NCBI GenBank assembly: GCA_023078555.1
Contig: CM041197.1
Span: 895,501 to 959,500, forward strand
Source of the DNA: Ulva prolifera
Lineage: Eukaryota; Chlorophyta; Ulvophyceae; Ulvales; Ulvaceae
Direction of reading: 5' to 3'
Length of the DNA: 64,000 nt
Shown here: one piece after another, positions 6,612-41,400 of the stretch
Numbering within the stretch: position 1 is the first letter of the stretch
Layout: every line of letters begins with the position of its first letter
The notes under the pieces: generated by a model
What the model was told of the DNA's origin: nothing
Database searches by the model: none
Seen by the model: only the letters and a program-made list of their open reading frames with translations
Made by a program: the position numbers and the translations under genes

Positions 6612-6648
6612 GTCTTGTGCATCGTAGACGTGCATCTTGAAGAGATAT

Positions 6649-6936
6649 TGTCAAGACGCGTGTTAGTCTCATCGAGTGTGCACAGGGGTTAATGCGCGTG
6701 CCTGAGCTGGTAAGCATGCTGACTGTGCATGACGACGTGGAGGGGAGCGTACCTTGCCATCGCGTAAAGTCGCGCGGCAGAAATGAAAGTAAGAATTGAA
6801 CCGGTGACCTCATGAGTACACACTACATGCTCTACCACTGGGGCTCACCTGAAGCAACGAGTCCTTTGTTAGATGACTCCTCCCTTGATTATGTCATCTA
6901 TATTCTTGGAATCCCAGATATGGATATCCCACAACA
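6649..6936 (-). repeat. TRIM LTR (3' LTR in element orientation)
   Basis: 288 bp with TG...CA ends. On the minus strand it contains the tRNA-like segment described separately and short AT-rich blocks near its start. Confidence 0.9.
6788..6849 (-). promoter_or_regulatory. tRNA-like module with Pol III box-like motifs inside the LTR
   Basis: Read on the minus strand, the segment has GTGGTAGAGCAT followed at tRNA spacing by AGGTCACCGGTTCAATTC. The spacing between the D-arm end GAGC and the TTCAA loop, including a five-base AGGTC variable region, matches a canonical tRNA. The loop position would read TGT (Thr-like), but position 33 is G and the anticodon and T stems are poorly paired, so it is not a functional tRNA. 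The A-box region has one extra base; the B-box-like GGTTCAATTCT is good. The same module is present in all four LTR copies, including the plus-oriented one near 25480-25540. Confidence 0.6.
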
Positions 6937-6953
6937 CTTCCCCCCTTAACGAG
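6937..6953 (-). promoter_or_regulatory. Polypurine tract of the TRIM
   Basis: The minus-strand TTAAGGGGGGAAG lies immediately before TGTTGTGGG of the downstream LTR, as expected for a plus-strand primer. Confidence 0.75.
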
Positions 6954-7195
6954 GATCGAGCGTAGGGAGATCCAGATCTGATAACTGTGGGATATCTTCG
7001 ATACTCCTTATGGAATGTTGGAACCTTCTCTTCGCGTCCCGAGTCCACGGGGGCCCAACCCGCTGTAACCGAACTCATATAACTGGGACTCCCTTAAGCT
7101 CGAGAGCTATGCTGACTGGGATGCGATCGCTCGGGAGGAGCTCACACAGCGGAAGGTGTAATGAAGATGGAAGCTGTAAGGCAGATTACGAAGTC

Positions 7196-7209
7196 TGCTC
7201 ACCGATACC
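7196..7209 (-). promoter_or_regulatory. Primer-binding-like site of the TRIM
   Basis: The minus-strand GGTATCGGTGAGC directly follows the LTR end TTGACA. It resembles the TGGTATCAGAGC site of plant Copia elements but differs at several bases, so the priming tRNA is uncertain. Confidence 0.6.
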
Positions 7210-7497
7210 TGTCAAGACGCGTGTTAGTCTCATCGAGTGTGCACAGGGGTTAATGCGCGTGCCTGAGCTGGTAAGCATGCTGACTGTGCATGACGACGTG
7301 GAGGGGAGCGTACCTTGCCATCGCGTAAAGTCGCGCGGCAAAAATGAAAGTAAGAATTGAACCGGTGACCTCATGAGTACACACTACATGCTCTACCACT
7401 GGGGCTCACCTGAAGCAACGAGTCCTTTGTTAGATGACTCCTCCCTTGATTATGTCATCTATATTCTTGGAATCCCAGATATGGATATCCCACAACA
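7210..7497 (-). repeat. TRIM LTR (5' LTR in element orientation)
   Basis: 288 bp, differing from 6649-6936 at one base (cggcaaaaatg versus cggcagaaatg). It is followed on the minus strand by the primer-binding-like site. Confidence 0.9.
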
Positions 7498-7918
7498 GAT
7501 ATTGTACTTTGATTCGATGCAAACTACCAACTCTCATTCGCGTCATGCTGACTGGGTGAAGGTGTGGTTTTCGGAGGAGGTGGAGCGAGAAAGACAAGCT
7601 TTGCCACATCACACCCTGATCCGGCTGCAGCACATCAACTAGACAGTTATTCACGATCCGCGCCACTTCTGCCAACCTACCCCCCAACAAATTGATGGGT
7701 CGGACTGTGGAGTGTGCACGGCATTAGCCATTAGGGACATAGTCGCCCAACGTCCCTTCTCGTATGCTGTCACTGGCGGGATGAGAACAGCCTACCATTT
7801 GCGAAAGCAAATGGCTCTAGAGCTTGCAGTTGGATGCCTTCTGCCTAAAGACAAGTGGTCGGAACAATGCGCTTGCCAGGTGACTGTCGGTAGAAGACCC
7901 GCCCTGTATATTGCATGA

Positions 7919-11798: not shown

Positions 11799-12162
11799 CA
11801 GTGTTCCACACATGGACTGCGAAAATTCAAGCAAGGAATCTCAGTGTCAAGTTGCTACGCTGTCGACTTAGATACAATAATGAAACGTGCATCTAGCATA
11901 AATGAAGTGGACTTGACTCATGTGTCACAACAGTCACCCCACCACCGATACCCAATCAGCATGATAGCTTCGAGGATGAGCCGCTGCGTAGATCGATTAC
12001 ATAGGAGAAGCTAGTTGCATGGCTGTAGCGACTCGGCACCTTGGCGTCAGGCGATACTGTGACAGGTGCCCATCCTTGGGACCACTAGTACTCTGCGCCC
12101 ATATTGACTAGCGCCAGCTTATGCCATATGATATTATCGGCGCATACAACCACTCGCCCAGG
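11799..12162. other. Transposase 3' flank
   Basis: Non-coding as far as can be seen. It lies between the transposase stop and the right inverted-repeat arm, and no polyadenylation pattern was identified with confidence. Confidence 0.4.
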
Positions 12163-12592
12163 CCATTGGCGGGCCTGGGGGCACGGAACAGTGGCCTCTG
12201 TGGTGCACGACACTTCATGCCCATACCAGGCAGGGACGTCACAGCCACAGTGAGTCCACCAAAGGTTGCCTGCGACCTGCAGTTGAATCAACTGTTATTT
12301 AAGCTGTACACATGTACACTGGCCAGGCGTCTGGCTTCACCAACTTGCTGGGCCAGAGGGCCATGCTGGGTCGGTGAGCTGGAGGAACGTAGACAGGCAG
12401 CCAGGGGCATCGCAGGCCTCAGCAAATGCTTCTAATTACATTTCATTTGTACTGGTTGATTCGCCAAGCGCGACAGGCATGACGCTCCGTACGCCGGCAA
12501 CACAGCGACCATGACCACCGAGCGGACAGGCAGAACATAGATCTTGGTACACGCCACTGTAACAAACAAGTCTAATAACACTTTGGAAACTA
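12163..12592 (-). repeat. Right arm of long inverted repeat
   Basis: This is the reverse-complement partner of 1-432. The inner boundary is sharp at 12163 (partner of base 432). The outer boundary is not resolved because the partner is cut off by the window start. Confidence 0.85.
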
Positions 12593-13219
12593 CAGTTGCA
12601 TTGGCCAGCCGTGAGACGAAGTCGCATACCTTTCGCCAGACATTGATGCACCGCAAAATCCTGGCGGAGGGTTAACCTCGGATGGTCCACTGCAGCGAAG
12701 CAGCATGTATGCGTATCATTTGATAAATAAGCTTAAAGTCGATCGGCTAGATCCGGCTTGCGCCATACAAGGCCTCGCCAGCTACTTTCCACCATCAAAT
12801 TAGTAGCCTACAGAAGGCGGATCCGCTATACGCTGGCGAACACCGCATTTAGTACAAACAATACAATACGAAGTTGCTCGCGAGCTGGCCAGGGCCCTGG
12901 CGCTTCGTGCGCGGCTCGCCAGATCTGCCCAAAAGACCCCCCACAGGCACGCCTAATGCGTAAACACGACCGAAATTAGGCTACTGCGGTGGCTGCTCAC
13001 GTTTCACAGTCTGAAAGCGCGCCGTGAGAGCACCGTGATGCACCAGTCGCATGGCTGACGCCGCCACACAAACGCTTGGCGACATGCATGCATGTGTGCC
13101 GCTGCATGGTGACGGCTGCCTTGCCCTGCGCGTGTGGCGTGACAGCTCGGGCCGACCAAATGCAGCAATCTCATGGCAATGCATCAGACTACAGGCGCAC
13201 CAGCCCCACGGCATGAAAA

Positions 13220-13411: not shown

Positions 13412-14660
13412 GATACAGGTCACATTGGTCCATATGGACCAATTTGACTTGTATCTGCCTTGAGGCTTGTAATGGCTGCCAGGCATGCAGACATGCAAGA
13501 GAATTCTAGATATTATAATCGATTGGATATCATGATGAATCCGCATGCTGCACCAACTAATTTTGAATCACAGCATGCATATGTGTACGCGTGAATCAGT
13601 GACCTTCTCCTGAAATCGTAGACTATTAAAATCGCCTAGGCCGTGTTCATGACCGTGCACGCAGCGACCTCGGTGCGCGCTTTGCGATTGGCTTCTGCTG
13701 GTTTCTGCTGGAGTTCGTGGGGATGGCCTGGTGGCTGTTTGAATTTGTGATGCATGCTGCGTTTCCTGTGCTGCTGAGGGTTTGCAGTTTTACAACAGAG
13801 TATACGGGAGAAACCCCCATGTCTGTGTGTCACAGATATATAAATGTCAAGCAGATAAACCTTGAGGCGATGCAATTCGAGCATTTCGATACGCTTAAAT
13901 TTAATTAAATATATTTAAATATCACACCCACAGTCACAAGCCCAAAGCCAGGGTGCAAGGCATTAACAATGGGACTGCTGTAGCTGTTGCCGGTGCCGTG
14001 CCGTGCTGTGTTCTCCGCAGAGAGCATGCATGCGGGCATGCTGGCTGTGGCTCAGGGTAGTCTTTCAGGGTGTTATCACCCAAGCCACTGTACTTGTTTG
14101 CTCTTCTGTAATTCAGAGAAGTACATGGGTGCAGGTAGACACATCGCAAGAATCTCGTCCCGATCAGCTCAGCGCTCAGGCTGGCTGTGGTTCGGGTGTG
14201 TTCATGACCCGTGTGTTTATGAAGCATTTGAAATATTCATGTGCTGCTGATGTCTTCACATCCTACATCGCACGTGCACCCATCGGAGCAGTTCTGCCAC
14301 CTGTCCCAGTGGCACATCGTGATTGGCATGTCTCCGCCGTTGCGGTTTTGGTGCGGCAGTTTCTTGCACGGCCAGGTCCTTATGACAGTGCCTCTGGTGT
14401 TGAAACATTTTGAAATTTCGTGGTCAGATGTAGCGGTTGTTCTTATTGTCGGTGTTGATGGTGTTGGTGGTGATGCTGGGGTGTCGGGTGTTGCAATTCG
14501 CCCGTCCCCTCTCGGTGAATTGGCTTGTGTTGTTGCATTCTGTGGCGCAAGTCAGAGTTTGCGGCAGCATGTTGCTTGGATGCCTCTTTCGGTCCCGGAA
14601 TTCGGAGTTGTCAATGTCCAAATGGATACGGCTAATGTAATCATGCATACATACATACGC

Positions 14661-15134
14661 GTCGAGCAGGTGTTCAGGGCAGTGGCCCAGGAGAAACTGG
14701 GGGACATCATGTTTATGCCGCCGGGTGACCCTTTGTGCATAGGAGATGTGTCGGTTGTGAACCCCTGTGCCGGTTCCTATTGCGGCCGTGCGGCCCGCGA
14801 GGACGGGGGTGCTGCGGAGACGCGGGACGTGCAGAAACGCACTGCTTATCGTTTGTACGACCCTGATGCGTATAGTTTTGTGCCGTTGTCGCATGAGACG
14901 CATGGTCGATTGGGACGGCCTGCCATGAATCACTTGAATCGGCTGGCGGAGGTTGCGTCTCGGTGTGGCAAGGTGAACCGTGCTTTGTTTGTGACGAATG
15001 CTCTGCGCCGGTTGAGTGTGGCGTTGTGCAAGGGGAATGCTCTTGTGCTCCGTGCGGGGCTTCAATCTTTGGCTGGCATCACCGGCCGAGCTGTGGTACG
15101 TGCTCGTGCCCGGCCTAGTGCCATGACTGCGTGA
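14661..15134 (+). pseudogene. LINE ORF2 C-terminus, unit 1
   Basis: Encodes the conserved C-terminal block of about 155 residues that begins VFRAVAQEKLGDIMFMPPGD and ends PSAMTA, then TGA. The same block recurs in units 2, 4 and 7. It is Arg-rich near the end and has no catalytic residues of reverse transcriptase or endonuclease. It is a 5'-truncated fragment, open in frame with unrelated upstream sequence. Confidence 0.75.
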
Positions 15135-15204
15135 GTGGATTTGCGTGTGTATTCCTGGCAACGGCTCGCTGCCCGGCCTCTGTCCATTGTAACTACATAC
15201 ATAC

Positions 15205-16152
15205 GTGGACCTGGACAATGCGGGGACCTGAACTTCGCGCCACAATATTGTTGAAAAACAATGGCGCGAGATCGGGTCCCACGCGTGTGTGGCATCCACG
15301 CGCATACCGCGCACAGCGCCGTTCGTCCGCGCGCGGCTCGCGGCCGCTCCGAGGCAGATCCATGCTGGCCCGTTGGGCCCGACCCCCCCTGCTCTGCCCC
15401 AGCCCGCCTCCCAGGTCGCGGGCCCTTCGCGTGGGGCGACCTTGCCCGCGGCGCCGATGCCTGCAGCCCCGCTGCCGCCGCAAACCGCGCGCGCGGACGA
15501 GGCGCCGGCACCTACGCCTGCTCCGGCCGCCGACGCCGATGCTGGACACAGCGCCCAGATGGGGCGCCACGCGCCAGACGCAGCGCGGGCTGCGGCACTG
15601 GCGGCGGCGGTGGCGGCGCCGGGTGGTCAGGATCCGGCGGGGCCTGGGGAGCAGGCCGCTGCCGCGCAGGCAACGGCGCTGGATCAGGTGTTCAGGGCAG
15701 TGGCCCAGGAGAAACTGGGGGGCATCATGTTTATGCCGCCGGGTGACCCTTTGTGCATAGGAGATGTGTCGGTTGTGAACGCCTGTGCTGGTTCCTCTTG
15801 CGGCCGTGCGGCCCGCGAGGACGGGGGTGCTGCGGAGACGCGGGACGTGCAGAAACGCACTGCTTATCGTTTGTACGACCCTGATGCGTATAGTTTTGTG
15901 CCGTTGTCGCATGAGACGCATGGTCGATTGGGACGGCCTGCCATGAATCACTTGAATCGGCTGGCGGAGGTTGCGTCTCGGTGTGGCAAGGTGAACCGTG
16001 CTTTGTTTGTGACGAATGCTCTGCGCCGGTTGAGTGTGGCGTTGTGCAAGGGGAATGCTCTTGTGCTCCGTGCGGGGCTTCAATCTTTGGCTGGCATCAC
16101 CGGCCGAGCTGTGGTACGTGCTCGTGCCCGGCCTAGTGCCATGACTGCGTGA
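15205..16152 (+). pseudogene. LINE ORF2 C-terminal fragment, unit 2
   Basis: Starts inside the zinc-knuckle region seen complete in unit 4. It continues through an Ala/Pro-rich linker of about 120 residues and ends with the same C-terminal block as unit 1 at TGA 16150-16152. The open frame from 15289 is 287 codons. A frame change near the start separates the knuckle remnant from the linker, so the copy is dead by truncation in any case. Confidence 0.75.
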
Positions 16153-16222
16153 GTGGATTTGCGTGTGTATTCCTGGCAACGGCTCGCTGTCCGGCCTCTG
16201 TCCTTTGTAACTACATACATAC

Positions 16223-16364
16223 GTAAAGACGCTTTTGAAGTTTCTCATGTGCAGTGCACTTGCCCGTAGTGGGTGTGCACTGGCCTGGTGAATGAGTGGA
16301 TTTGCGTGTGAGTTCCTAGCAATGGCTCGGTGCCCGGCCTCTGTCCTTTGTAACTACATACATA
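16223..16364 (+). repeat. LINE 3' UTR fragment, unit 3 (variant subfamily)
   Basis: About 140 bp with a divergent 5' part, then the common 3' end (GAGTGGATTTGCGTGTGAG... and the CTTTGTAACTACATACATA tail). The substitutions, shared with unit 8 (GAGCAATGGCTCG type), indicate a second subfamily. Confidence 0.7.
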
Positions 16365-18176
16365 CCATAACGCATGCCACGGAGGGCACCGTCATCACCG
16401 GCACGCCCATCGGCACCCCGGCGTTCGAGTCGGCGCACGCGGAAGTGACGGCCGACAAGGTGTGCGCCACCATCGAGAAGATGATGAGCCTGCCCTGAAA
16501 GCGCAAGACCAGTTCTTGCTGCTCTCGATGTCCTGCCAACGCCGTATGCTGCACTACGCCAGGGCGGTGCCGTGGGCGCACATTTCCGATCACATGCGCC
16601 GGAAGGAGGCGTCTGTCCTGGCTGCGGTGAATGTAATCATGCGCGTCCCGCGGGACGACCTTCGTGCGGCCGCACAAGACGTCCTTCCAGCGCGCCTTGG
16701 AGGCCTGGGCATCATGTCCACGCCGCCGGAGGTCGCGGACAGAGCGTACCTCGCTGCAGCTGCGGTGAGCCAAAAGGCATTCGCAGGAGGCCCCGAGTGC
16801 ATGCAGCCGTATCAGGGGCCGCATGGGCAACACTTGCAGGAAACCTGGCAGGCCCTCAACGTCGCTCAGCAGCTCCATCCGGAGCTGCCCGGGCCGGCGA
16901 GCGGCGACACCATCGCCAAGGTGTTACCTGATATGCAGCAGCGTATCACTAAGGTGGTTGCCCTGCGCCGCCGGGCGGCTCTGCTTGCCAGCCATGACGT
17001 CGCCACGCTCGAGGGTGCATGCAACTTGGCACGGCTTCGCAGCTGTGCTTGCCGTGCAGCCACCCTTTGGTCGAGCACCCTGCCGCTCTCCCAGGCGCTG
17101 CGCATGACTGACATTGCGTTCATGCTGAGCATCAGGTATCTCCTGGGCATGTCCCCAGCCCCTCCTAATGCGGTCGGCTCGCGCTGCGAATGTGGCACAT
17201 TCATACAGCCGCATGATCTCGACCACGCGATGAATTGCACACACAATGCGGGGACCTGGATTTCGCGCCACAATATCATTGAAAAACAATGGTGCGAGAT
17301 CGGGTCCCACGCGTGTGTGGCATCCACGCGCATCCAGCGCACAGCGCCGTTTGTCTGCGCGCGGCTCGCGGCCGCTCCGAGGCAGATCCATGCTGGCCCA
17401 TTGGGCCCGCCCCCCCCTGCTCCGCCCCAGCCCGCCTCCCAGGTCGCGGGCCCTTCGTGCGGGGCGACCTTGCCCGCAGAGGCGATACCTGCAGCCCCGC
17501 CGCCGCCGGTTGCGTGTGCGCACGCGGCGCCGGCACCTGCGCCTGCTCCGGCCGCCGACGCCGATGCCGGACACAGCGCCCAGCCAGGGCGCCACGCGCC
17601 AGACGCAGCACTGGCTACGGCCCTGGCGGCGGCAGCGGCGCCGGGTGGCCAGGATCCGGCGGGGCCTGGGGAGCAGGCCGCTGCCGCGCAGGCAACGGCG
17701 CTTGCGCAGGTGTTCAGGGTAGTGGCCCAGGAGAAACTGGGGGACATCATGTTTATGCCGCCAGGTGACCCTTTATGCATACGAGATGTGTCGGTTGTGA
17801 ACCCCTGTGCTGGTTCCTATTGCGACCGTGCGGCCCGCGAGGACGGGGGTGCTGCGGAGACGCGGGACGTGCAGAAACGCACTGCTTATCGTTTGTACGA
17901 CCGTGATGCGTATAGTTTTTTGCCGTTATCGCATGAGACGCATGGTCGCTTGGGACGGCCTGCCATGAATCACTTGAATCGGCTGGCGGAGGTTGCGTCT
18001 CGCGATCGGTGTGGTGAACCGTGCTTTGTTTGTGACGAATGCTCTGCGCCGGTTGAGTGTGGCGTTGTGCAAGGGGAATGCTCTTGTGCTCCGTGCGGGG
18101 CTTCAATCTTTGGCTGGCATCACCGGCCGAGCTGTGGTACAACCTCGTGCCCGGCCTAGTGCCATGACTGCGTGAG
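16365..18176 (+). pseudogene. LINE ORF2 3' part, unit 4 (longest): RT thumb, zinc knuckle, C-terminus
   Basis: Begins with sequence like the post-palm part of LINE reverse transcriptases (GTPIGTPAF). A frameshift near 16475-16500 follows, then about 270 residues of helical thumb/connection sequence. A zinc-knuckle-like CECG...DHAMNC...RHN motif near 17185-17275 is typical of L1-type LINEs. An Ala/Pro linker and the shared C-terminal block follow, shifted in frame by a small indel near 18000. No YxDD box is present because the copy is 5'-truncated. The L1-type assignment rests on the knuckle and on the Zepp-like clustering. Confidence 0.75.
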
Positions 18177-18245
18177 TGGATTTGCGTGTGTATTCCTGGC
18201 AACGGCTCGCTGCCCGGCCTCTGTCCTTTGTAACTACATACATAT

Positions 18246-18730
18246 CTGTGGTAGGGTGAACCGTGCTTTGTTTGTGACGAATGCTCTGCGCCGGTTGAGT
18301 GTGGCGTTGTGCAAGGGGAATGCTCTTGTGCTCCGTGCGGGGCTTCAATCTTTGGCTGGCATCACCGGCCGAGCTGTGGTACAACCTCGTGCCCGGCCTA
18401 GTGCCATGACTGCGTGAGTGGATTTGCGTGTGTATTCCTGGCAACGGCTCGCTGCCCGGCCTCTGTCCTTTGTAACTACATACATATCTGTGGTAGGGTG
18501 AACCGTGCTTTGTTTGTGACGAATGCTCTGCGCCGGTTGAGTGTGGCGTTGTGCAAGGGGAATGCTCTTGTGCTCCATGCGGGGCTTCAATGTTTGGCTG
18601 GCATCACCGGCCGAGCTGTGGTACGTACTCGTACCCGGCCTAGTGCCATGACTGCGTGAGTGGATTTGCGTGTGTATTCCTGGCAACGGCTCGCTGCCCG
18701 GCCTCTGTCCTTTGTAACTACATACATATA
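18246..18730 (+). repeat. Two near-identical 242-bp LINE 3' units in tandem (units 5 and 6)
   Basis: 18246-18487 and 18488-18730 both start CTGTGGTAGGGTGAACC and run to the CATA tail with few differences. Sharing the same truncation point is unlikely for two separate retrotransposition events, so a local tandem duplication is more likely here. Confidence 0.85.
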
Positions 18731-18732
18731 TA

Positions 18733-19251
18733 CTGGCGGGGCCTGGGGAGCAGGCCGCTGCCGAGCAAGCAACGACGCTGGAGCAGGTGTTCAGGGCAGT
18801 GGCCCAGGAGAAACTGGGGGACATCATGTTTATGCCGCCGGGTGACCCTTTGTGCATAGGCGATGTGTCGGTTGTGAACCCCTGTGCTGGTTCCTCTTGC
18901 GGCCGTGCGGCCCTAGAGGACGGGGATGCTGCGGAGACGCGGGCCGTGCAGAAACGCACTGCTTATCGTTTGTACGACCCTGATGCGTATAGTTTTGTGC
19001 CGTTATCGCATGAGACGCATGGTCGCTTGGGACGGCCTGCCATGAATCACTTGAATCGGCTGGCGGAGGTTGCGTCTCGGTGTGGTAAGGTGAACCGTGC
19101 TTTGTTTGTGACGAACGATCTGCGCCGGTTGAGTGTGGCGTTGTGGAAGGGAAATGTCCTTGTGCTCTGTGCGGGGCTTCAACCTTTGGCTGGCATCACC
19201 GTTCGAGCTGTGGTACAACCTCGTGCCCGGCCTAGTGCCATGACTGCGTGA
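18733..19251 (+). pseudogene. LINE ORF2 C-terminal fragment, unit 7
   Basis: Starts in the Ala/Gly linker (GCGGGGCCTGGGGAGCAGG) and carries the full C-terminal block, ending at TGA 19249-19251. It has more substitutions than units 1 and 2, so it is an older or different copy. Confidence 0.75.
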
Positions 19252-19391
19252 GTGGATTTGCGTGTGTATTCATGGCAACGGCTCGCTGCCCGGCCTCTGT
19301 CCTTTGTAACTACATAAATACACCCGGTGTGAATTCCGAGCAATGGCTCGATGCCCGGCCTCTGTCCTTTGTAACTACATACACCCGGTGC

Positions 19392-22300
19392 CCGAACCAC
19401 CGCAGCTGGGTTTAAGACTGTACAACACATAGTTTAGATCTCCAGATGGGATCCCATCCGGGTGGCCAGGCACGCCCAGGCACGCACCCACCAGACTGGA
19501 TCATCAGATCGCTGCTATTGACGCGATGCCGGCAAACTAAACCAATAATCAGCCCTGATTGCAGGTTTTGGTGCTCTGCCATACAATAGCCTGACCCCTT
19601 GTACCCTTTTCGCCTCACAGGTGAGCTGTACATGCATGCATGCAGCGAGCCCTTGGTGCATGTTCACTCGGACTCCATCATGACTCATGATGCATCTCCA
19701 AGCCACCTTAGCTACAGCTGCATCCAAGCTTGCCGGAAAAGCTCTCACGCATTGGCCCCGCCTGTGGCCCCGGGACACAGCTATCCTCGCAACGTACGAG
19801 GTCTGGGCTGATGTAGCTACAAGTAGCTACTTCTTTAAAGTCCTGGTAGGTGCAGATTATAAGCAACACCATAAGAATACGGTCAGATTGCGATTCTAGA
19901 GCTGGTTTCGCTTAGGGAGCTGTGCGCTGCCCTCCGCCCGCGCACGTGCGTACGCCACCGTGGCTGCTCGCACACGCCGGCGCGTGAGCGCATGAGGCGC
20001 GATGACCGCCACCGCACGCCTATGACGGAGCACTCCGATACCCACTGGAGACCCGTCACGGCCGCTCAGCCTGGATGAGCCTAGGGGGCCTGCCATGGTG
20101 TACCGCCGGCCCGGCAGCAAGCTGCACGCAGCCGCGGCGGACGAACTGCAGGGTGCGGTTGACGACGCAGTGACAGTGGCTGCTGCTAACAGATCTAGAC
20201 GAAGCTTTCCACAGGGATCGGAGACATAGCGTCCCGCATGCGACCGTCCCACCGACGTTAACGCACGTGCACCGAGAGATATGATTGTGTTGTCGTTGGA
20301 TAGACCCGCTCATTCGTCTGTCACACGTGCGCGGGTCTCAGATGTCATTACAACAGAAGATGGTGGTACTGCTGCTAGGCTAGCAGTGCTAGCAGAAGGA
20401 TGTGTATACAATGTTATATATTACAAAAGAGTGAACGGGAGAAGACCAACACCAAAACCGAATCTCATCTGAATCAACAGCAACATATACTCGTTTTGCT
20501 ACATACACATTCAGATACTTACTACATGAACATAAAGTACTTTATATTGTACATCCATATGGGCTGGAGCATGCAAACTTTGTGTTGAACACAATGCATG
20601 TGTTCCAGAAGAGTGAACACAACACAAAGGTGGTTTTGGTGCTTGTCTTCTCCCATTCACTCTTTTGTAAAATACAAAGGCGGAGAAGGAAGTCGTGCAC
20701 GATACCCGTTTGTGCAGGCTCCGCATACTATCCGCATAGTATGCCTGCACCTTGATCATCCGTACCATGCGGCAATCTATAGCAATCTATAGCAATCTAT
20801 CATCCGTACCATGCGGCAATCTATATATCTGACTACAGGAAACTCGGCTGGTCTCAGAGGACGAAAGAGCCAGATTCCAGATGCCACTTTGGCGACTTTG
20901 GTGGGGGCAACTGGGGCATATTTGGCTAGGTTTGGGGCTGATGTTGGAAAGGCTTAGCATTTGGAAATAGCTGGTATAGAGTGCTTGAAAGGTTGTTTTC
21001 CATGCCGCCGTCGGCAATCGATTGTACAATAATTGAGCTATTGATATGTTGGAAATTGCGTCGCAGTCGCAACGCGATGGCGATCTCATGCAAATTGCCC
21101 TATTTGCAAAATGCAGCGTAGAGCTGTTTCAGCACGTACATGTTGGCTTCAATTGAACACCACGTCCGTGGATGTTGATGCAGAGATGTTGCAGATTATG
21201 ATAGACTGCATCTTGGGGTGTTCGCGGACCTTGGAGCTCAAGCGAGACATTCTGTGACAACAGAGGCCGGCACAGTGGATGGTGCGCGCATGGGTTATAC
21301 AGCTCCAAAATACGCTGGATTACAAGCGCGCCTTCGCATCTGTGTTCGCTCGTAAATAGTACACCGTATGTGATCTTCTACAGTCCGTGGTTGGCCAGGC
21401 GCGGGCTGTTTGGCGATGTTACAGTCCTTGCACACATGCCACTCCGAAGTGTGCCGATATTGCCCCTGTTGCCACAACAGACGGAATTTGCCGTACGTCC
21501 ACGAGCAGATTCATCTGAATTAGGACCAGTTCGAGAATTTAGATGGCAGATTCTGCCTGTTTTGTGAAAAGGGCCGATTCTGTATGCTGGCGGGAGGCCA
21601 TGCGTCCCAGGCTGAACGCACGGTAGATCAGTGGATGTGCAGCAGTAATTGTTCGATGGTTGATCGTTTTGATGTTACATACATGGTTACAGAGGTACAG
21701 CTTCACTGCACTCTGCTCCCTCCAGCCCACGAGTCCCGAGGGATTCCTCACAACCCACAAGGCAAGTACAGTGCGAAGCAATGGCTAAGTGCCACAAGGA
21801 AGGGGTTGGAAGAACTTTAGAGTCTACTGCTCGAACGAAGCTGCCACCGGTGAGTCTCTGTACGCTTGCTAGCCATCCTCACTTCTGTGGGGGAGCTCTG
21901 CGCCGTGATGATCTCTGCAAGGAACCAGTACCTGTCACACACAGTTTGCATGTGTGAGTATGCTAAACGTAGTATTTTACTGTGAATTGTCACCAAAGTG
22001 TCAGTCCAACTTCATGCTGTGCAGTGTTGCCGGTACTATAGGCCACAAGTATAGGCTGCAAATATGGATCCACAATCGTACGTATTGCATTAATTCCGAA
22101 TTCCGGAATTCCGTCGCAGACTGCTGATGTGCATATGAACGAGTGCTTTGAGCTGACTATACGGTATCATACCTTTGGCACAGGCCGCTGACTGCACTTG
22201 GACGGTTGAGTGGTTGCTGCTGGTCGCTTTTTTGCTCGAGCACTACTCTGAGCTCCTTGCATCTGGTTCTCTTTGCTGGCAACGGATTGCAAAACACCCT

Positions 22301-23931: not shown

Positions 23932-25392
23932 CTAGCCGGCTTGTGGACGGCCTTCGCTGGCTTCATGCACACGCATGGGGGGCGGCCCGGCATGTGTCCT
24001 AGGGAATCCTTCCTGTGCAAACTCGGCTAGCACCTCCGCGCGCACCCTTGCTCTCATCTGCTCTGCAGTCTCTTGGAGGATCATATTCGGGGGTTGGGTC
24101 TGCACGTGAATTCCGTAGCTGTCGTTTGTGCCTGTTGTAGCGGACTGTGTTGCTCGGACATTTGCCTCGGAAAGCTCATGAGGTCGATCTCCTGTCACCA
24201 GTTCATCAGTTGGCTGAAGCTGGTGTGCGCTAGTCACTGGCAGCAAGCCGGCCAAGCCTGAGTTGAAGCACTGCTCGCCGCCTGCCACGATGTCAGGAAA
24301 AAATTCTTCTGGTGTCACATGCACGTCAACCGCCCGGAGCACATGTACCTTGGCAAGTAACAGGCTCCCAGTCGTCCATGCCATCGATGTCGATGCTTCC
24401 CATTGCCTGTACGATGATATGCAATTGAGTCTTGGCTTGTGTTGTACAGGCGGTGTAGCAATCATGCTTTCATGACCTGGGCATCACTCATGAGTGCTCA
24501 TTCATTTGATCATACAGATTGCACTCACAGTTGTCATCATGAATATGGCTTCAGCATCACATGTGCACATACTGCCTACACATTGTTCGAAGCATACCTC
24601 GTTTGCAGATGATGTCTTCGCGGATGTGCTCTGGCCTGGGCTGATGTCAAGACGCTGGTTAGTCTCACCGAGTGTGCACAGGGGTTAATGCGCGTGCCTG
24701 AGCTGGTAAGCATGCTGATTGTGCGTGATGACGTGGAGGGGAGCGTACCTTGCCGCCGCGTTATGTCGCGTGGCAGAAATGAAAGTAAAAATCGAACCGG
24801 TGACCTCATGAGTACACACGACATGCTCTACCACCGGGGCTCACCTGAAGCAACGAGTCCTTTGTTAGATGACTCCTCACTTGATTATGTCATCTATATT
24901 CTTGGATCCCCAGATATGGATATCCCACAACAGCTGATCCATTGAGGCATGGCGTCCTTGAAATGCTTGTCCCATCGAGGGTGAATCTCCACCTCGTGAA
25001 CTCGCCGCACCTTTTCGTCAGGTGCAATCAGTTCCTTGTGATCATCGCTGTTCACACAGGCAAGGAACGCCAATTGTCTCTCAGACACTTCGGCGCCGAT
25101 CAGCTCTGTAGGGTCTTCTACCAGCTGCCATGCATACTCTGCCCATACAGTCTGTGCACAGGTCAAGTCGGAGTCGAATGCAATGGACAAAGCTGGAGGG
25201 GAGTTCTTAGACCAGTTGGCTATTCCTTGATTCGTCAAAGCCGGTGCCTTCATACCCTCGTCCGCCTTTTCTTGATCATAGTGAGGGCGATGGCAGTCTC
25301 CTTGGGGTGCCTTCACATCTTCCAATGCTGTCCCGGTCAGCCCTTGCTCAAATGCTATGCTGCTCATTTCGCCTTTAATCGTCTTGAGCCAG
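23932..25392 (-). CDS. Putative minus-strand gene fragment, interrupted by a solo LTR
   Basis: Two minus-strand blocks look coding. 25392-24938 encodes about 150 residues that are acidic and Trp-containing, ending in a DAMPQWIS motif. 24465-23932 encodes 177 residues with a helical ETAEQMRARVRAEVLAEF segment near its end. The first block is cut by the solo LTR 24645-24932. Without it, the frame runs on about 15 codons to a candidate donor (ACGAG then GTATGC) near 24600. No homology is recognised; it could be host gene or transposon coding sequence. The upstream end is lost at the LTR beginning at 25393. Confidence 0.3.
24645..24932 (-). mobile_element. Solo LTR of the TRIM family with 5-bp TSD
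   Basis: 288 bp, same TG...CA ends and tRNA-like module as the LTRs at 6649-7497, with more substitutions. It is flanked by the perfect 5-bp duplication GCTGA (24640-24644 and 24933-24937), indicating LTR-LTR recombination after a normal insertion. Confidence 0.9.
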
Positions 25393-25680
25393 TGTTGTGG
25401 GATATCCATATCTGGGGATCCAAGAATATAGATGACATAATCAAGACAAGAGTCATCTAACAAAGGACTCGTTGCTTCAGGTGAGCCCTAGTGGTAGAGC
25501 ATGTAGTGTCTACTCATGAGGTCACCGGTTTAATTCTTACTTTCATTTCTGCCGCGCGACTTTACGCGATGGCAAGGTACGCTCCCCTCCACGTCGTCAT
25601 GCACAGTCAGCATGCTTACCAGCTCAGGCACGCGCATTAACCCCTGTGCACACTCGATGAGACTAACACGCATCTTGACA
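25393..25680 (+). mobile_element. TRIM-family LTR in opposite orientation, no TSD
   Basis: 288 bp from TGTTGTGGG to TTGACA on the plus strand. Flanks are GCCAG and ACTGG, so no target duplication. It sits exactly at the junction between the minus-strand unknown coding block and the truncated Copia element, which suggests a rearrangement breakpoint at this copy. Confidence 0.85.
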
Positions 25681-26272
25681 ACTGGCCCGACACATGGCAA
25701 ATCCATCAAAGGAACACATGGATGCAGCAAAGCAAGTCCTACGATACCTGGCGGGATCCACGGACCTAGGACGTATGTTCAAAAGAGACGCACCAAGCGA
25801 AGTTATTGGGTACTGCGACGCTGACTATGCGGGTGACATTGATAAGCGGAAATCAACATCAGGATATGTGTTCATCGTTTCTGGAGGAGCTGTCTCATGG
25901 AGCTCTAAATTACAGTCTACGGTCGCCATGTCCACATGCGAGTCGGAATTCATGTCAGCAGCGCATGCAGCCAAGGAAGCGCTATGGCTGAGAGATATTA
26001 AGGGTGATCTCAAGGGCAGAGTGGAACCAGTGACCATATTCGGAGATAATCAGGGGGCACTAAAGCTGGTACACCACCCATACTCGCACCAACGGACAAA
26101 GCATATAGATGTTGCCCACAGGTTCGTGCAAGACCGAGTGGAACGAGGGGAGCGAAAGTGTGACTATGTGCCCACCGACAAAATGGTGGCAGACTGTCTC
26201 ACGAAGGCTGTTCCACTACAGAAGCTCCAAGAAAATCGGAAGGACATGGGGTTAACAAATCGACCGACCTGA
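25681..26272 (+). pseudogene. Ty1/Copia polyprotein 3' end: RNase H domain
   Basis: Encodes the last 190-odd residues of a Copia Pol. Visible are the Asp-containing DADYAGDIDKRKSTSGYVF motif, the Glu-containing STCESEFMSA, FGDNQGAL, HPYSHQRTKHIDV and ADCLTKAVP before the stop. All are standard for Copia RNase H. The upstream Gag, protease, integrase and RT are absent: the sequence begins abruptly at the TRIM LTR ending at 25680, within the segment before MANPSKEHM. A polypurine tract and a 3' LTR follow. The frame itself is uninterrupted, so the truncation may be fairly recent. Confidence 0.92.
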
Positions 26273-36522: not shown

Positions 36523-37649
36523 CGGTGCAGACCTCCCGTCCTCTCAGTGCACCGTCACTGCATGCCTCGCGCAGGCACCATGCATGCCAACAACATGGAG
36601 CATCGATGCTGGGCATGATAACTACCCAGGAAGACCACCCTGACCATCTAGTACATCTCCCACCTGAAGTGCTGCAGATGCCTCAACTCACACAGTCAAC
36701 ACAGAAATCGCACTGGATTCATCAGTGACATATGGATATCCGCACTAACAAACAGGCGGAATCCTCCGCCCCATGGTATCTACGCAACCGGAGCCCGCAC
36801 TCTGCATCACCTGTGCATGTCGATCATCAGTCGGCGTCGACCGCTGGAATTTCAGTTAACTGTTGCGGCAGATCTAGTCAGTCCAGCGTTTGGAGAAACA
36901 TACATGACTACATAGTGGGCATGGCCTCATTGCTTTGAGATCGTATGTACCGGCCCATCCGGAACTGCCCTTTGAGTGGATTGCTTGACTGTGAATCTGG
37001 CAAGGTCGTCCGGCCTCACTGCATGCAGCCCCCACACCGCGCGGTGACTCAGCGCACCGTCCTCCCCCCTCACTGCGGCTGGATCCTCCTGCTGCGCATG
37101 CATTCAAGTTGGGGAGGACGGCCCGTCCCCGGGGGAAAACTTATCTGTACACCGGGTAAAGTCGCGTCTTCTCACATCAGGCAGCCCCCGCCCAGGCGTG
37201 CTATACACATGCGCAGCGGCTGCGGCTGGCTCCACCACCTCGACATGTACACCCTAGGCTATAGCTGGATCAAGTTTCCCGCCTCGCTCGAGCAAGAGAG
37301 CTCTCTTCAAGACATTCTCTGAAGTCGCCCGGCTCGCTGAACGTCTCTTGTTGGACGATCGATGCTGTGCGTCCGTCCTGTTCAGTGGAGACTCAATACT
37401 TTGTGGCAATTGCACAACGCGTCGCAATGATTCGGGTCAGATCCGTGACCCGCGTCTCTCTAGACTGCTTCTTATGTGCAACAACAACGTTAACGAATGC
37501 AGCGTTGAGCACACTGCCGGGCCGGGATGGCTGCCAGACAGCTTTATTTTTATATGTTCAGAGTAAGGCAAGCACGCAACTCACCCGTCATGATTGCAGT
37601 GCTATGCGCACATCACATGCATGCATGCAATATCAGACACAGGGTGCTT

Positions 37650-37745
37650 GTGGCTAGGGGTGCACCGCAGTGCTTGTTTGTTTGGACTCTCCTGCAATTC
37701 AGGAGGCGTCCAAGCAAACCAGCACTGCGCTGCTCCCCCAGCCAC
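37650..37745. repeat. Imperfect 96-bp foldback
   Basis: Arms of about 44 bases (GTGGCT...GGACTCTCCT and its partner) pair with several mismatches around a short centre, CAATTC. A MITE remnant or hairpin; no target duplication was determined. Confidence 0.7.
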
Positions 37746-38406
37746 ACCGAGGCCTTCAACGTCCCTTGTATTTCTGGCTTAGTGACAATTAATCTAGGAA
37801 GCATTGTGAGTTGATCAAAGTGTCTGGTACTGCCGCGGCAAGCATCCCGTTTGGGACAGGTGTGCTGCTCACGGCAAATGGCAAGCTCGGCAGGAACTTC
37901 GATATCGTGTGCAAGCACTGCAAGTGACATTTTTCGACCGCTAGCGCAGCATGTTGGGCTGCTCATCCAACTGGTCCCAAGGAAGCTGGGGCAGCAACAT
38001 GCAACAAGATGCCTGCGTCTGTTCGTAGCCTGTTCTGTGGCGCACCACAGCAATTGGCAACATAGGACGTTGAGGCACACGCTTCGGTTGATCGGGCGCA
38101 GGCAGCGGCCACCCTGTCTTGCCACGCATGTCATTAGGTGTTGTAGGCAGTGTGTACGCACGTAGACTGCACAAGTCGCTGCTCAGCGCAGACGGGACGA
38201 AGTGGCTGGGGGCCTTCGTCTCCAAGATGACTTTACACTCAAACAAACATGTTTGCATCACAACGAGAAGAAACGCGTTCAATTCAAAAGTTCCGTATGT
38301 AACATAGCATTTCCATGTAACTCTGCCAACATTCACCGCACTCACAGTCAAGACAGCAAACATGCTTGCCGTGTCCCCAACCCCATGCTACCTACCGAAG
38401 CACCTC

Positions 38407-41400
38407 CTAGACAAGGCTCAGCACCCCAGCCGCGAGCAAGTCCTGGATCTCATTCTCAGGCAGCGCGTACTCCGTGCGATATATATGTGCAGCTTCCTCC
38501 CTCCTCCACGCCGCCGTCTCCTCCGGCATCGGCCCCGGCTCCACCACCTCCACCCCCTCGATCGACTCGTCGCCGTCGCTCTCCTCGTCCAGCATGCCCG
38601 ACTCGCTGAACGTCTCTCGCTGGTACCATGACGATGCCAAGGCGTCGTCCTCCGGAGCGACAGTGCACCGCGTGAACACGCTCGGCTCGTGGATGTACGA
38701 CACCTGGATCCCCTGCTCGCAGCGCGCCACGTGCACGTCCTCCGCAGTGAGGTGGCCATACTCGTGCACAACAATCCCATCCCCACGCATGTCCTCGACC
38801 GACACCCGCTCCATCGTCATGCGTGCGACGGCGCCCTCATGTTCACACCGCGCCCCGGCCACCGCCCCTCCGGACCCTTGCACCGCGTCCCACGCTGCGC
38901 GCTCCGCGACGTCCCCCTGCCTCCCGCACGCCCAGCACGCACCGCTGGGCCGGCTGCTCCTCCCGACAGCGACGCCATATTTGCCGTCTCTGAGGACAGC
39001 ATCGCGCATGTGCATCGTGCATGCGCCCCCCAAGCTCAACATGTAGCTGAAGCGTCCGAGCATGCTCTCCTGCAGCGCCACGTGCGCGCGCCCGCCGCTG
39101 ACACTGACACCCTTGCACGTCCCGAACAAGGTGGTCCTATCGACCCGAACCGCCACCTTTGCGAGGCCCTGGTTGTTCACGAGCACGCCCCTGGACACCT
39201 CCATCGCTGCACAGTCGACCATCGAGATGGCACTAGGCCCCCCTTCCGCTGACGCGGACCTCGACTCTACCCTGAGCACAGTGTCGCTGACGGAGAACGA
39301 AATGGCCTGAAACAGCGCGCCCGGGCCCCCCTGTGCGTTCGTCCGGCAGTCACGCACAACCGCCCCGAAGGTGCAAGCAGTGACGCTTCCGCCGCGCACT
39401 TCACACCGCGAGTTCAGGATCATGTACGCGGATCCGGTCTGCTGCTTGTCCGAGACCCACTCATCATGCATTGAGATGTTCGCCAGCTTCTTGATCTGCT
39501 GGACCACCACGGCGACTGCGGTGACGCGGCTGTCGCCGCACACCCGGACCCCTTCCGCCCCCCCGCTCACAGTGCTACGCAGCAGCCACAGCACTGCGCC
39601 CCTCTCCCCGGATATCACCGCCCTGGCCATCAGCGTGCTACTCCCGGCCCCTATCCCGACCACCGCAACCCTGGAATCCGCCAACACCACACGAGCCCTG
39701 TCCTCTGCGGTGCATACTGCGCCGCCGCCGCCGCTGACATCGCAATGCGCGCCACGCATCACGCACCCGCGGCCAGATGCGCGAACAGACACCTCAAAAC
39801 CCGCCACGGCACAGCCAATGCACGTCACGACGCATGCGCGCCCCTGCGCGTCGATGGCGGCGTCGCGGCAGGCCAGGGTGCACTGCGCCATCGCCACCCG
39901 GCCGTCCTCGCGTGCGCAGACCCCGATACCCCACTGCTCCACTCGGCACTGCTCCATCTGCACCTTGGCGACCAGATTAGGGACAAAACCCAGCCCCACA
40001 GACAAAGCGGTGTGCGCAGCTGCTGCAGCAGGTCGTTCCAGCGCGGTCCTGCGCAGAAGCAGGCACCCTCGGGCCTGGGCACGCACGCCCTCGGCGCAAT
40101 CCGAAATCGTCGTGTCATGCATCTCGATCGCCGCGCGCTGGTGCAGCGCCATGCATGCGGCGCCGAAGGATTCGATCGTGCAGCTCCGCAGCGCCGCGGT
40201 GCCACTGTGAACATGCATGCCGCAGACTCCCGGCCCCCTGCTGTGGCCGCCGCGGAGGTGGGTCGTGCTCAGGGTTACGTGGCTGCCGGCGCCGCTGACG
40301 GCGGCCCCGGCCATGGTGTGTTCGATGGAGCACTTTGCCAGGATGGCTGTTGCGCCGTCCTCGGTGATAGTGGCCCCTGGGCACTGTGTGAATGTGCAAC
40401 CGATGAGGGAGGCGGTGGTGCCGGGGCCGGAGGCGGTGAGGGCAGGGTTCGCGCGGCGGAAGGTGCAGGAGCGCAGCGTAAGCGCCGCGCCGTGCGCAGC
40501 GTACAGCTGGCAGTTGCTGAAGGTGCAGCCGCGGAAGGAGCCGGAGTAGGTGGAGCCGGCGCAGACGACGGCAGCACCTGCATGCATGGGCGGGATTGGG
40601 TGTGCATGGCTGTGGCCGTCAGTGGTCAGTGTTGTGACTGCTCTAGCAATGGGTTTTCGCGCGTCACATGTTACTGGGCTTCCAAAGATGGACATTTCGG
40701 CAGCCACCTGTATACGACGTGGCACGCATCAGGGGGTAGGCGATATGAACCGCGATGCAGCGCTCGGAGCATTGTTTTGGTGCAGGAGAAAACTGCACCT
40801 GAGAAGGCGGTACCCTCGAAGTGGGCGCCGGCGCCGTCGAGCAGCAGCACGGCCTGCTCCGGCAGCTCGATGGTGCCGCCCGAGACAACGGAGCCGCAGG
40901 GGGAGGCCCGGAAGACGAGGAAGGTGGAGGCGTCACGGGGGCCGTGCTTTGGGGCGAGCCTGCTGCTGTGGAGGTCGAGCCTGCTGGCTCCTGCTGCTAG
41001 CTCCGCCAGGAGCTCGTCCAGAGTGGCCACAGGCGCCTGCAGCTCATGCCTACAAGTTTGACGAGGGTGTATGAGACCGCGCAATCGTGGCGTGCATCAA
41101 AATTTTCTGCATGTGTGGTCTGCAGCGTTGTGGTGTGAGCTTTGGGCAGCAAATCGATTGCAGCAGAGGAGGTGATATGCAGTGGACTCCGAGTGCACGC
41201 TGATGCTCTGTCGGACATGATGGGATAATGACATCACAATGGTTCACAACATCAGCGGGTGATGTCAAATACATGGCAATGCTGACTAGTAGGTGACGAG
41301 TGACTGTACTACAGTTGCTCTGCAGCCGACTGGTGTCACAACAAGCTCTGCCCGGACAGCTCAAGCTGCCGGAGGAGCTACTGAGTCGGCCGAAGCTCGC

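Follow-up and report, generated by a model that had tools for sequence, protein, structure and literature searches.

The window, by which we mean the whole 64,000-nt stretch of DNA analysed, holds a complete TRIM retrotransposon, whose parts are listed in Table 1 together with two further LTRs of the same family. The two LTRs of the element differ at 1 of 288 positions, and the region between them is too short for gag or pol. The sense strand of the element is the minus strand, as shown by the purine tract AAGGGGGGAAG, which borders one LTR at 6937, and the primer-binding site, which borders the other at 7209. The stretch 6649-7497 thus has the two LTRs, the length under ~1 kb and the absence of gag and pol that define a TRIM, as well as a primer-binding site after the 5' LTR, a polypurine tract before the 3' LTR and duplications of a fixed 5 bp. 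The initial annotation had described a complete TRIM with these LTRs, both priming sites and GATAT duplications, and the sequence of 6649-7497 confirms it. It had also assigned to the LTRs a module with GTGGTAGAGC, AGGTC and GGTTCAATTC; all three were found in both LTRs on the minus strand, in sense to the element. Likewise, all four LTR copies of the window keep the module, with the B-box changes GGTTCGATTT and GGTTTAATTC in LTRs 24645-24932 and 25393-25680. The DNA just after the latter reads by eye like Copia RNase H, judged from its motif, and gave no Pfam match.

Table 1. Coordinates of the TRIM, its parts and the related LTRs within the window
Feature	Position	Strand	Detail or basis
Complete TRIM element, 849 bp	6649..7497	minus (sense strand)	
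5' LTR, 288 bp	7210..7497	minus	TG...CA; primer-binding site follows
3' LTR, 288 bp	6649..6936	minus	TG...CA; polypurine tract precedes
Internal region, 273 bp	6937..7209	minus	without gag or pol
Primer-binding site	7198..7209	minus	GGTATCGGTGAG
Polypurine tract	6937..6947	minus	AAGGGGGGAAG, directly before the 3' LTR
Target-site duplication	7498..7502	none	GATAT
Target-site duplication	6644..6648	none	GATAT
tRNA-Thr(UGU)-like segment, 5' LTR	7356..7412	minus	LTR positions 86-142; alignment to local tRNAs
tRNA-Thr(UGU)-like segment, 3' LTR	6795..6851	minus	LTR positions 86-142; alignment to local tRNAs
Degenerate A box, 5' LTR	7396..7406	minus	6/8 defined positions of TRGYNNARNNGG; read by eye
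B box, 5' LTR	7353..7363	minus	GGTTCAATTCT, one mismatch to GGTTCRANTCC; read by eye
Least variable LTR part	6649..6756	minus	LTR positions 181-288; divergent copies
TTTTT, 5' LTR only	7340..7344	minus	arises from the single LTR-LTR difference; possible Pol III stop
Same-family solo LTR	24645..24932	minus	duplications GCTGA at 24640-24644 and 24933-24937
Same-family LTR, opposite orientation	25393..25680	plus	without matching duplication

Family copies and host genome

The assembly searched comprises 88.9 Mb in 44 contigs. With the LTR as query, all of the best 40 of 195 candidates were at least 98% identical. The internal region gave 33 genome matches, 29 of them at full length. A search for an autonomous partner through these matches yielded none, as the 29 were full TRIM internals; the remaining four look like two TRIMs split by ~10-kb insertions. 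A 33-nt core of the tRNA-like module occurs at 149 sites with up to 3 mismatches (reversed control, 0), and among the 100 of these sites that were listed, 2 are tRNA-Thr genes themselves. A 40-nt query from the 3' portion of the LTR gave 150 sites, with 0 for its control.

From 70 distinct LTR matches, 60 full-length LTRs were kept (25 5' LTRs, 25 3' LTRs and 10 solo LTRs), making up 22 complete elements. Perfect 5-bp duplications flank 17 of the 22 complete elements and 9 of the 10 solo LTRs. One of the five elements without a perfect duplication belongs to a tandem array as its second unit, and the outer flanks of that array do match (CAGGG). The polypurine flank GGGGGAAG is present at 25 of the 60 full-length LTRs. 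In 13 of the 22 complete elements the two LTRs are identical, so the family has moved recently; old copies are under-represented in this sample, because the LTRs were mostly taken from similarity-ranked lists (best 40 of 195 candidates). In IMG/VR, a 16-mer had 26 exact matches, the longest match to the element at these loci being 21 nt (2 of the 26), and two longer patterns had 0 matches.

The genome had been called alga-like, and this stands: it belongs to a photosynthetic eukaryote whose chlorophyll a/b proteins are of the green type; the chlorophyll a/b-binding family has 38 matches in the assembly. When one such protein was compared with the PDB, the best hits were named chlorophyll a-b binding proteins, entries that are presumably from green algae and plants. 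The top chain by total score was LHCI-2 of 9vfj, which is presumably from Euglena and whose rank stems from two summed domains (230 + 189 bits). The contig stretch C1:1-150 has a high GC content and reads by eye like a bacterial tryptophan synthase gene; it is possibly contamination or a misassembly.

The tRNA-Thr(UGU)-derived segment and variation across the LTR

For comparison with the LTR, a local tRNA set was assembled from 1780 candidates, of which the best 63 were scored and 60 matched; 50 genes with 41 distinct sequences were compared, and 8 further tRNA genes were left out. Two tRNA-Lys genes among the predictions carry an 11-nt intron each, and two other predictions measure 90 and 93 nt, presumably through introns.

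LTR positions 86-142 align with positions 2-58 of tRNA-Thr(UGU) in sense orientation and without gaps, with 42 of 57 positions identical (74%) and the anticodon UGU in register. The match has an E value of 2e-7 in this small set of 41 distinct tRNA sequences, and tRNA-Thr(UGU) is also the best match of the LTRs at 24645 and 25393 (E 1e-5 and 3e-5). Against the 41 local tRNAs, the best local score was 30 on the sense strand and 14 on the antisense strand, whereas 500 dinucleotide shuffles of the LTR reached at most 20 and none attained 30. A second tRNA-like segment considered on the antisense strand was dismissed, its score of 14 comparing with a shuffle mean of 13.3. The tRNA-like part was found in all 38 full-length LTRs compared.

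The Pol III promoter consensus sequences are TRGYNNARNNGG for the A box and GGTTCRANTCC for the B box. ARAGORN predicted no tRNA gene in the window, and Rfam searches at E up to 10 returned no tRNA match in the whole window or in 24645-25681; the covariance check on the LTR that the initial annotation had proposed therefore came out negative. These two results are what could be said for a chance likeness, in which the LTR would owe nothing to a tRNA. We regard that explanation as hardly credible, since none of the 500 shuffles reached the observed score and the sense strand matches one particular local tRNA across 57 nucleotides without a gap. The segment retains the 5' three quarters of tRNA-Thr(UGU) and lacks the 3' part. 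It shows no tRNA fold either, which is weak evidence because plain energy folding misses the cloverleaf of the real tRNA-Thr too. The tRNA-like character seen in the initial annotation is thus upheld and traced to the host tRNA-Thr(UGU). The alignment, the missing 3' part, the missing fold and the missing tRNA model match together mark the segment as tRNA-derived but not as a tRNA gene.

Among the 149 module-core sites, the five variant sites that were read (L168-L172) are all LTRs and not SINEs. L172 had been chosen as a site where the module was not listed, and the module proved to be present. Capture straight from a tRNA gene and capture via a SINE that is now lost are both possible.

The conservation test used 38 LTRs, one per insertion. 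The module at 86-142 had 0.37 changes per site and the LTR overall 0.27. The 17 box-defining sites had 6 changes (0.35 per site), the other module sites 17 changes in 43, and the 228 LTR sites beyond the module 55 (0.24 per site). Random sites were as low as the boxes or lower with P 0.53 within the module and P 0.80 across the whole LTR. The initial annotation had held that its reading would fall if the boxes showed no more conservation than the remaining LTR, and this is what was found (0.35 against 0.24 changes per site), in a test of low power, the copies being young.

A more divergent set of 24 of 64 copies, consisting of the 20 of the 60 LTRs under 97.5% identity and the variant sites L168-L171, was compared with the window LTR. 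The changes per site were 0.085 in the module, 0.067 at 146-180, 0.052 at 1-85 and 0.024 at 181-288, with subfamily changes counted more than once because both LTRs of some elements are included. Across the two LTRs of the 22 complete elements, the module had 0.28 and 0.35 changes per site, level with 0.29 and 0.34 at LTR 146-180. The module thus ranks among the LTR's most variable stretches. Its variation falls mostly at a few subfamily sites, namely LTR 97, a D-loop insertion after 102, 113 and 124-125. GGTAGAGC (the D-loop insertion aside), AGGTC and GGTTC are seldom changed, although the boxes remain statistically unremarkable. The low variability of LTR 181-288 had a P of 0.055 in the 38 young copies, and the RNA structure of this part is not unusually stable (z -0.79). 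In the variant copy L171, these 108 nt are unchanged and the first 180 nt carry 26 differences.

Priming, candidate partner and transcription signals

The 3' end of the initiator tRNA-Met gene of this genome is CTCATCGATA, and the primer-binding site GGTATCGGTGAG is complementary to it at 11 of 12 positions plus one G.U pair. The exact 12-nt complement GGTATCGATGAG opens 9 of the 29 full-length internal regions, and the other 20 begin with GGTATCGGTGAG. The site of the TRIM lacks the leading T of a full TGG. A primer tRNA with the 3' end CTGCTCACCGATA was also considered and discarded: no such gene was found, and the initiator tRNA-Met gene explains the site.

At three near-identical loci elsewhere in the genome, an ATG reading frame follows CTGGTATCGGTGAGCAG, and 15 nt at the primer-binding site are exactly common to them and the TRIM. 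At two of the three (C8:451575 and C5:7001214), an RVT_1 match lies ~3.2 kb downstream on the proper strand; the third has no RVT_1 nearby, both statements applying to the best 150 of 452 candidates. None of the three lies near an RVT_2 (Copia) match among the best 150 of 676 candidates. With RVT_1 near two loci and no listed RVT_2 near any, a Gypsy-like partner is a fair guess, and an RVT_1-type (Gypsy-like) element is possibly the autonomous partner of the TRIM. Besides the 15-nt site, no stretch longer than 9-12 nt is common to the TRIM and the partner pieces read.

The retention of 42 of the 57 tRNA-Thr positions could also reflect a role of the segment in reverse transcription, as a mimic for priming or packaging, and not in transcription. 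This is very improbable in our judgement: the priming site matches initiator tRNA-Met and finds no exact complement longer than 6 nt in the LTR segment, which has neither the 3' part nor the fold of a tRNA.

Half-tRNA priming is the mode of Drosophila copia and Ty5. Other elements of this genome, for example at C10:1580985-1581085, have a primer-binding site that can pair with the 5' half of initiator tRNA-Met as far as the anticodon loop, as in this mode. Fifteen further sites match this primer-binding site with 2-3 mismatches, and several of all these elements have an RVT_2 (Copia) match ~3 kb downstream.

On the sense strand, 21 of the 22 elements contain no T4 run, and a run of T4 or longer usually closes the local tRNA genes (found within 40 nt downstream in 27 of 30), so Pol III could read through the element. 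The scarcity of T4 was dropped as support in its own right: a shuffle test at first gave P ~0.10, and it is ordinary against the genome background, in which 213 of 690 stretches of the same length lack T4 (the background includes TRIM loci). The window copy may be silenced for Pol III, given the TTTTT in its 5' LTR. As for Pol II signals, a TATA-like AATATAGA lies at LTR 33-40, 30-40 nt before the expected start. TGTAA is the poly(A) signal of green algae, and neither TGTAA nor AATAAA occurs in the window element.

Related elements, competing readings and the surrounding window

The initial annotation had put forward a tRNA-based counterpart of Cassandra as a new idea. It had been anticipated: Helenus, known from fungi, animals and Selaginella, comprises TRIMs whose LTRs contain tRNA-derived sequence, and forms with Cassandra part of the wider class TRIMp3 (Kojima 2024, PMC10886601, in the sections drawn on here). 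According to the same sections, Helenus elements are 311-1263 bp long, have an A box with TRGCY and YGG and a B box with GGTTC, and show conservation around the boxes; fungal Helenus, with 5-bp duplications, is linked to Copia, and animal Helenus, with 4-bp ones, to Gypsy, and Pol III transcription of Helenus is left unproven (PMC10886601). Measured against these sections, the window TRIM has Helenus anatomy. It is 849 bp long, carries a tRNA-derived A/B-box segment in each LTR, a primer-binding site and a polypurine tract, and its family has solo LTRs and 5-bp duplications, as fungal and plant Helenus do. The segment is not a functional tRNA and has little complementarity to the primer-binding site. 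Of the Helenus box motifs, GGTTC and TGG are present in the window LTR, and TRGCY only as GAGCC.

There are also differences from Helenus as those sections portray it. The host is a green-lineage alga, and the source is a local tRNA-Thr(UGU). Within the window family, the boxes are not conserved beyond the rest of the LTR, whereas the published conservation refers to many families and to tRNA genes. The partner candidate is of the RVT_1 type, though the duplications of the TRIM are of 5 bp. The literature searched, as far as its available text goes, named no other TRIMs with tRNA-like LTRs besides Helenus, and to that extent the host lineage is new. Cassandra TRIMs of land plants carry 5S rRNA sequence in their LTRs (PMC10886601, same sections); the window TRIM resembles them in having a Pol III promoter-type sequence in the LTR and differs in that this sequence is tRNA-derived. 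The Rfam scans of the window and of 24645-25681, at E up to 10, gave no 5S rRNA match. With tRNA-derived SINEs (SINE2), the element shares internal A and B boxes from a tRNA, but it has LTRs, a primer-binding site, a polypurine tract and fixed 5-bp duplications.

Our leading explanation, to which as a whole we give about an even chance, starts from what the sequences show: a non-autonomous, Helenus-type TRIM with LTRs, 5-bp duplications, a tRNA-derived sense segment, an initiator tRNA-Met primer site, a polypurine tract, many copies and recent insertions. To this it adds transcription by Pol III. The LTRs would have taken up the 5' three quarters of a host tRNA-Thr(UGU) gene. Pol III would start in the 5' LTR upstream of the A box, near LTR position 70-80, continue across the element including the 3' LTR, and terminate at the first T-run beyond. 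The resulting RNA would have LTR ~75-288 at both ends, enough for the first strand transfer; initiator tRNA-Met would prime reverse transcription, and the proteins would come from an autonomous element, perhaps the RVT_1-type one with the same primer-binding site. Judged from its sequence, use of Pol III by the LTR is a plausible hypothesis; against it stand an A box that departs from the consensus at 2 of 8 defined positions, boxes without excess conservation in a variable part of the LTR, the missing tRNA fold and tRNA model match, an unremarkable freedom from T4 and the TTTTT in the 5' LTR of the window copy. A bolder version, which we hold to be rather unlikely, is that a green alga independently made tRNA-Thr(UGU) into a working Pol III promoter of a TRIM that has no terminator of its own. 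The RNA would then run to the first T-run of the flanking DNA, LTR 75-288 would be the strand-transfer repeat, and LTR 181-288, with its lower variability, would be the part recognised by the RVT_1-type (Gypsy-like) partner.

It may instead be that a tRNA or SINE fragment landed in the LTR and persists as a passive fossil, with Pol II transcribing the element from a TATA-like start in the LTR; we rate this as a serious candidate at somewhat under an even chance. The variability of the module, its unexceptional boxes and the degenerate A box agree with such a fossil, as do the position of AATATAGA ahead of the expected start and the fact that the least variable part of the LTR is 181-288. Yet the sense-oriented B box is almost perfect, the tRNA-like part persists in every full-length LTR compared, and the lack of TGTAA and AATAAA in the window element is suggestive, though only that, of transcription by other means. 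The element extends TRIMs with a putative tRNA promoter to a green-lineage alga, with a traceable donor, as the host tRNA-Thr gene is still present. With this donor and the 13 elements with identical LTRs, both the origin and the Pol III hypothesis could be tested in a microbe and not in rust fungi or wasps. Moreover, tRNA-like stretches in algal genomes can stem from LTR elements.

Several other features of the window were recorded. Inverted repeats at 1-432 and 12162-12593 (432 nt, 89% complementary) bound a 12.6-kb stretch that holds the TRIM, and a weak Ulp1 protease (C48) match lies beside the TRIM on the plus strand (7643-7915, E 0.0068, below the cut-off). From its sequence, this stretch looks like a large DNA transposon with a SUMO-type protease, which we presume may be of the KDZ/Zisupton kind. 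A 48-nt tandem repeat runs through open reading frames at 1039-2346, and 14600-19400 contains clustered repeats of 242 nt and 300 nt, spaced ~1.0 and 2.0 kb apart. Repeats common to several long open frames at 29000-58400 suggest a tandem gene family; the one frame tested there (38410-40728, minus strand) encodes a right-handed beta-helix protein (Pfam Beta_helix, E 1.2e-17). Both strands of a 98-nt hairpin at 37649-37746 match miRNA models, with scores under the gathering thresholds of these models.
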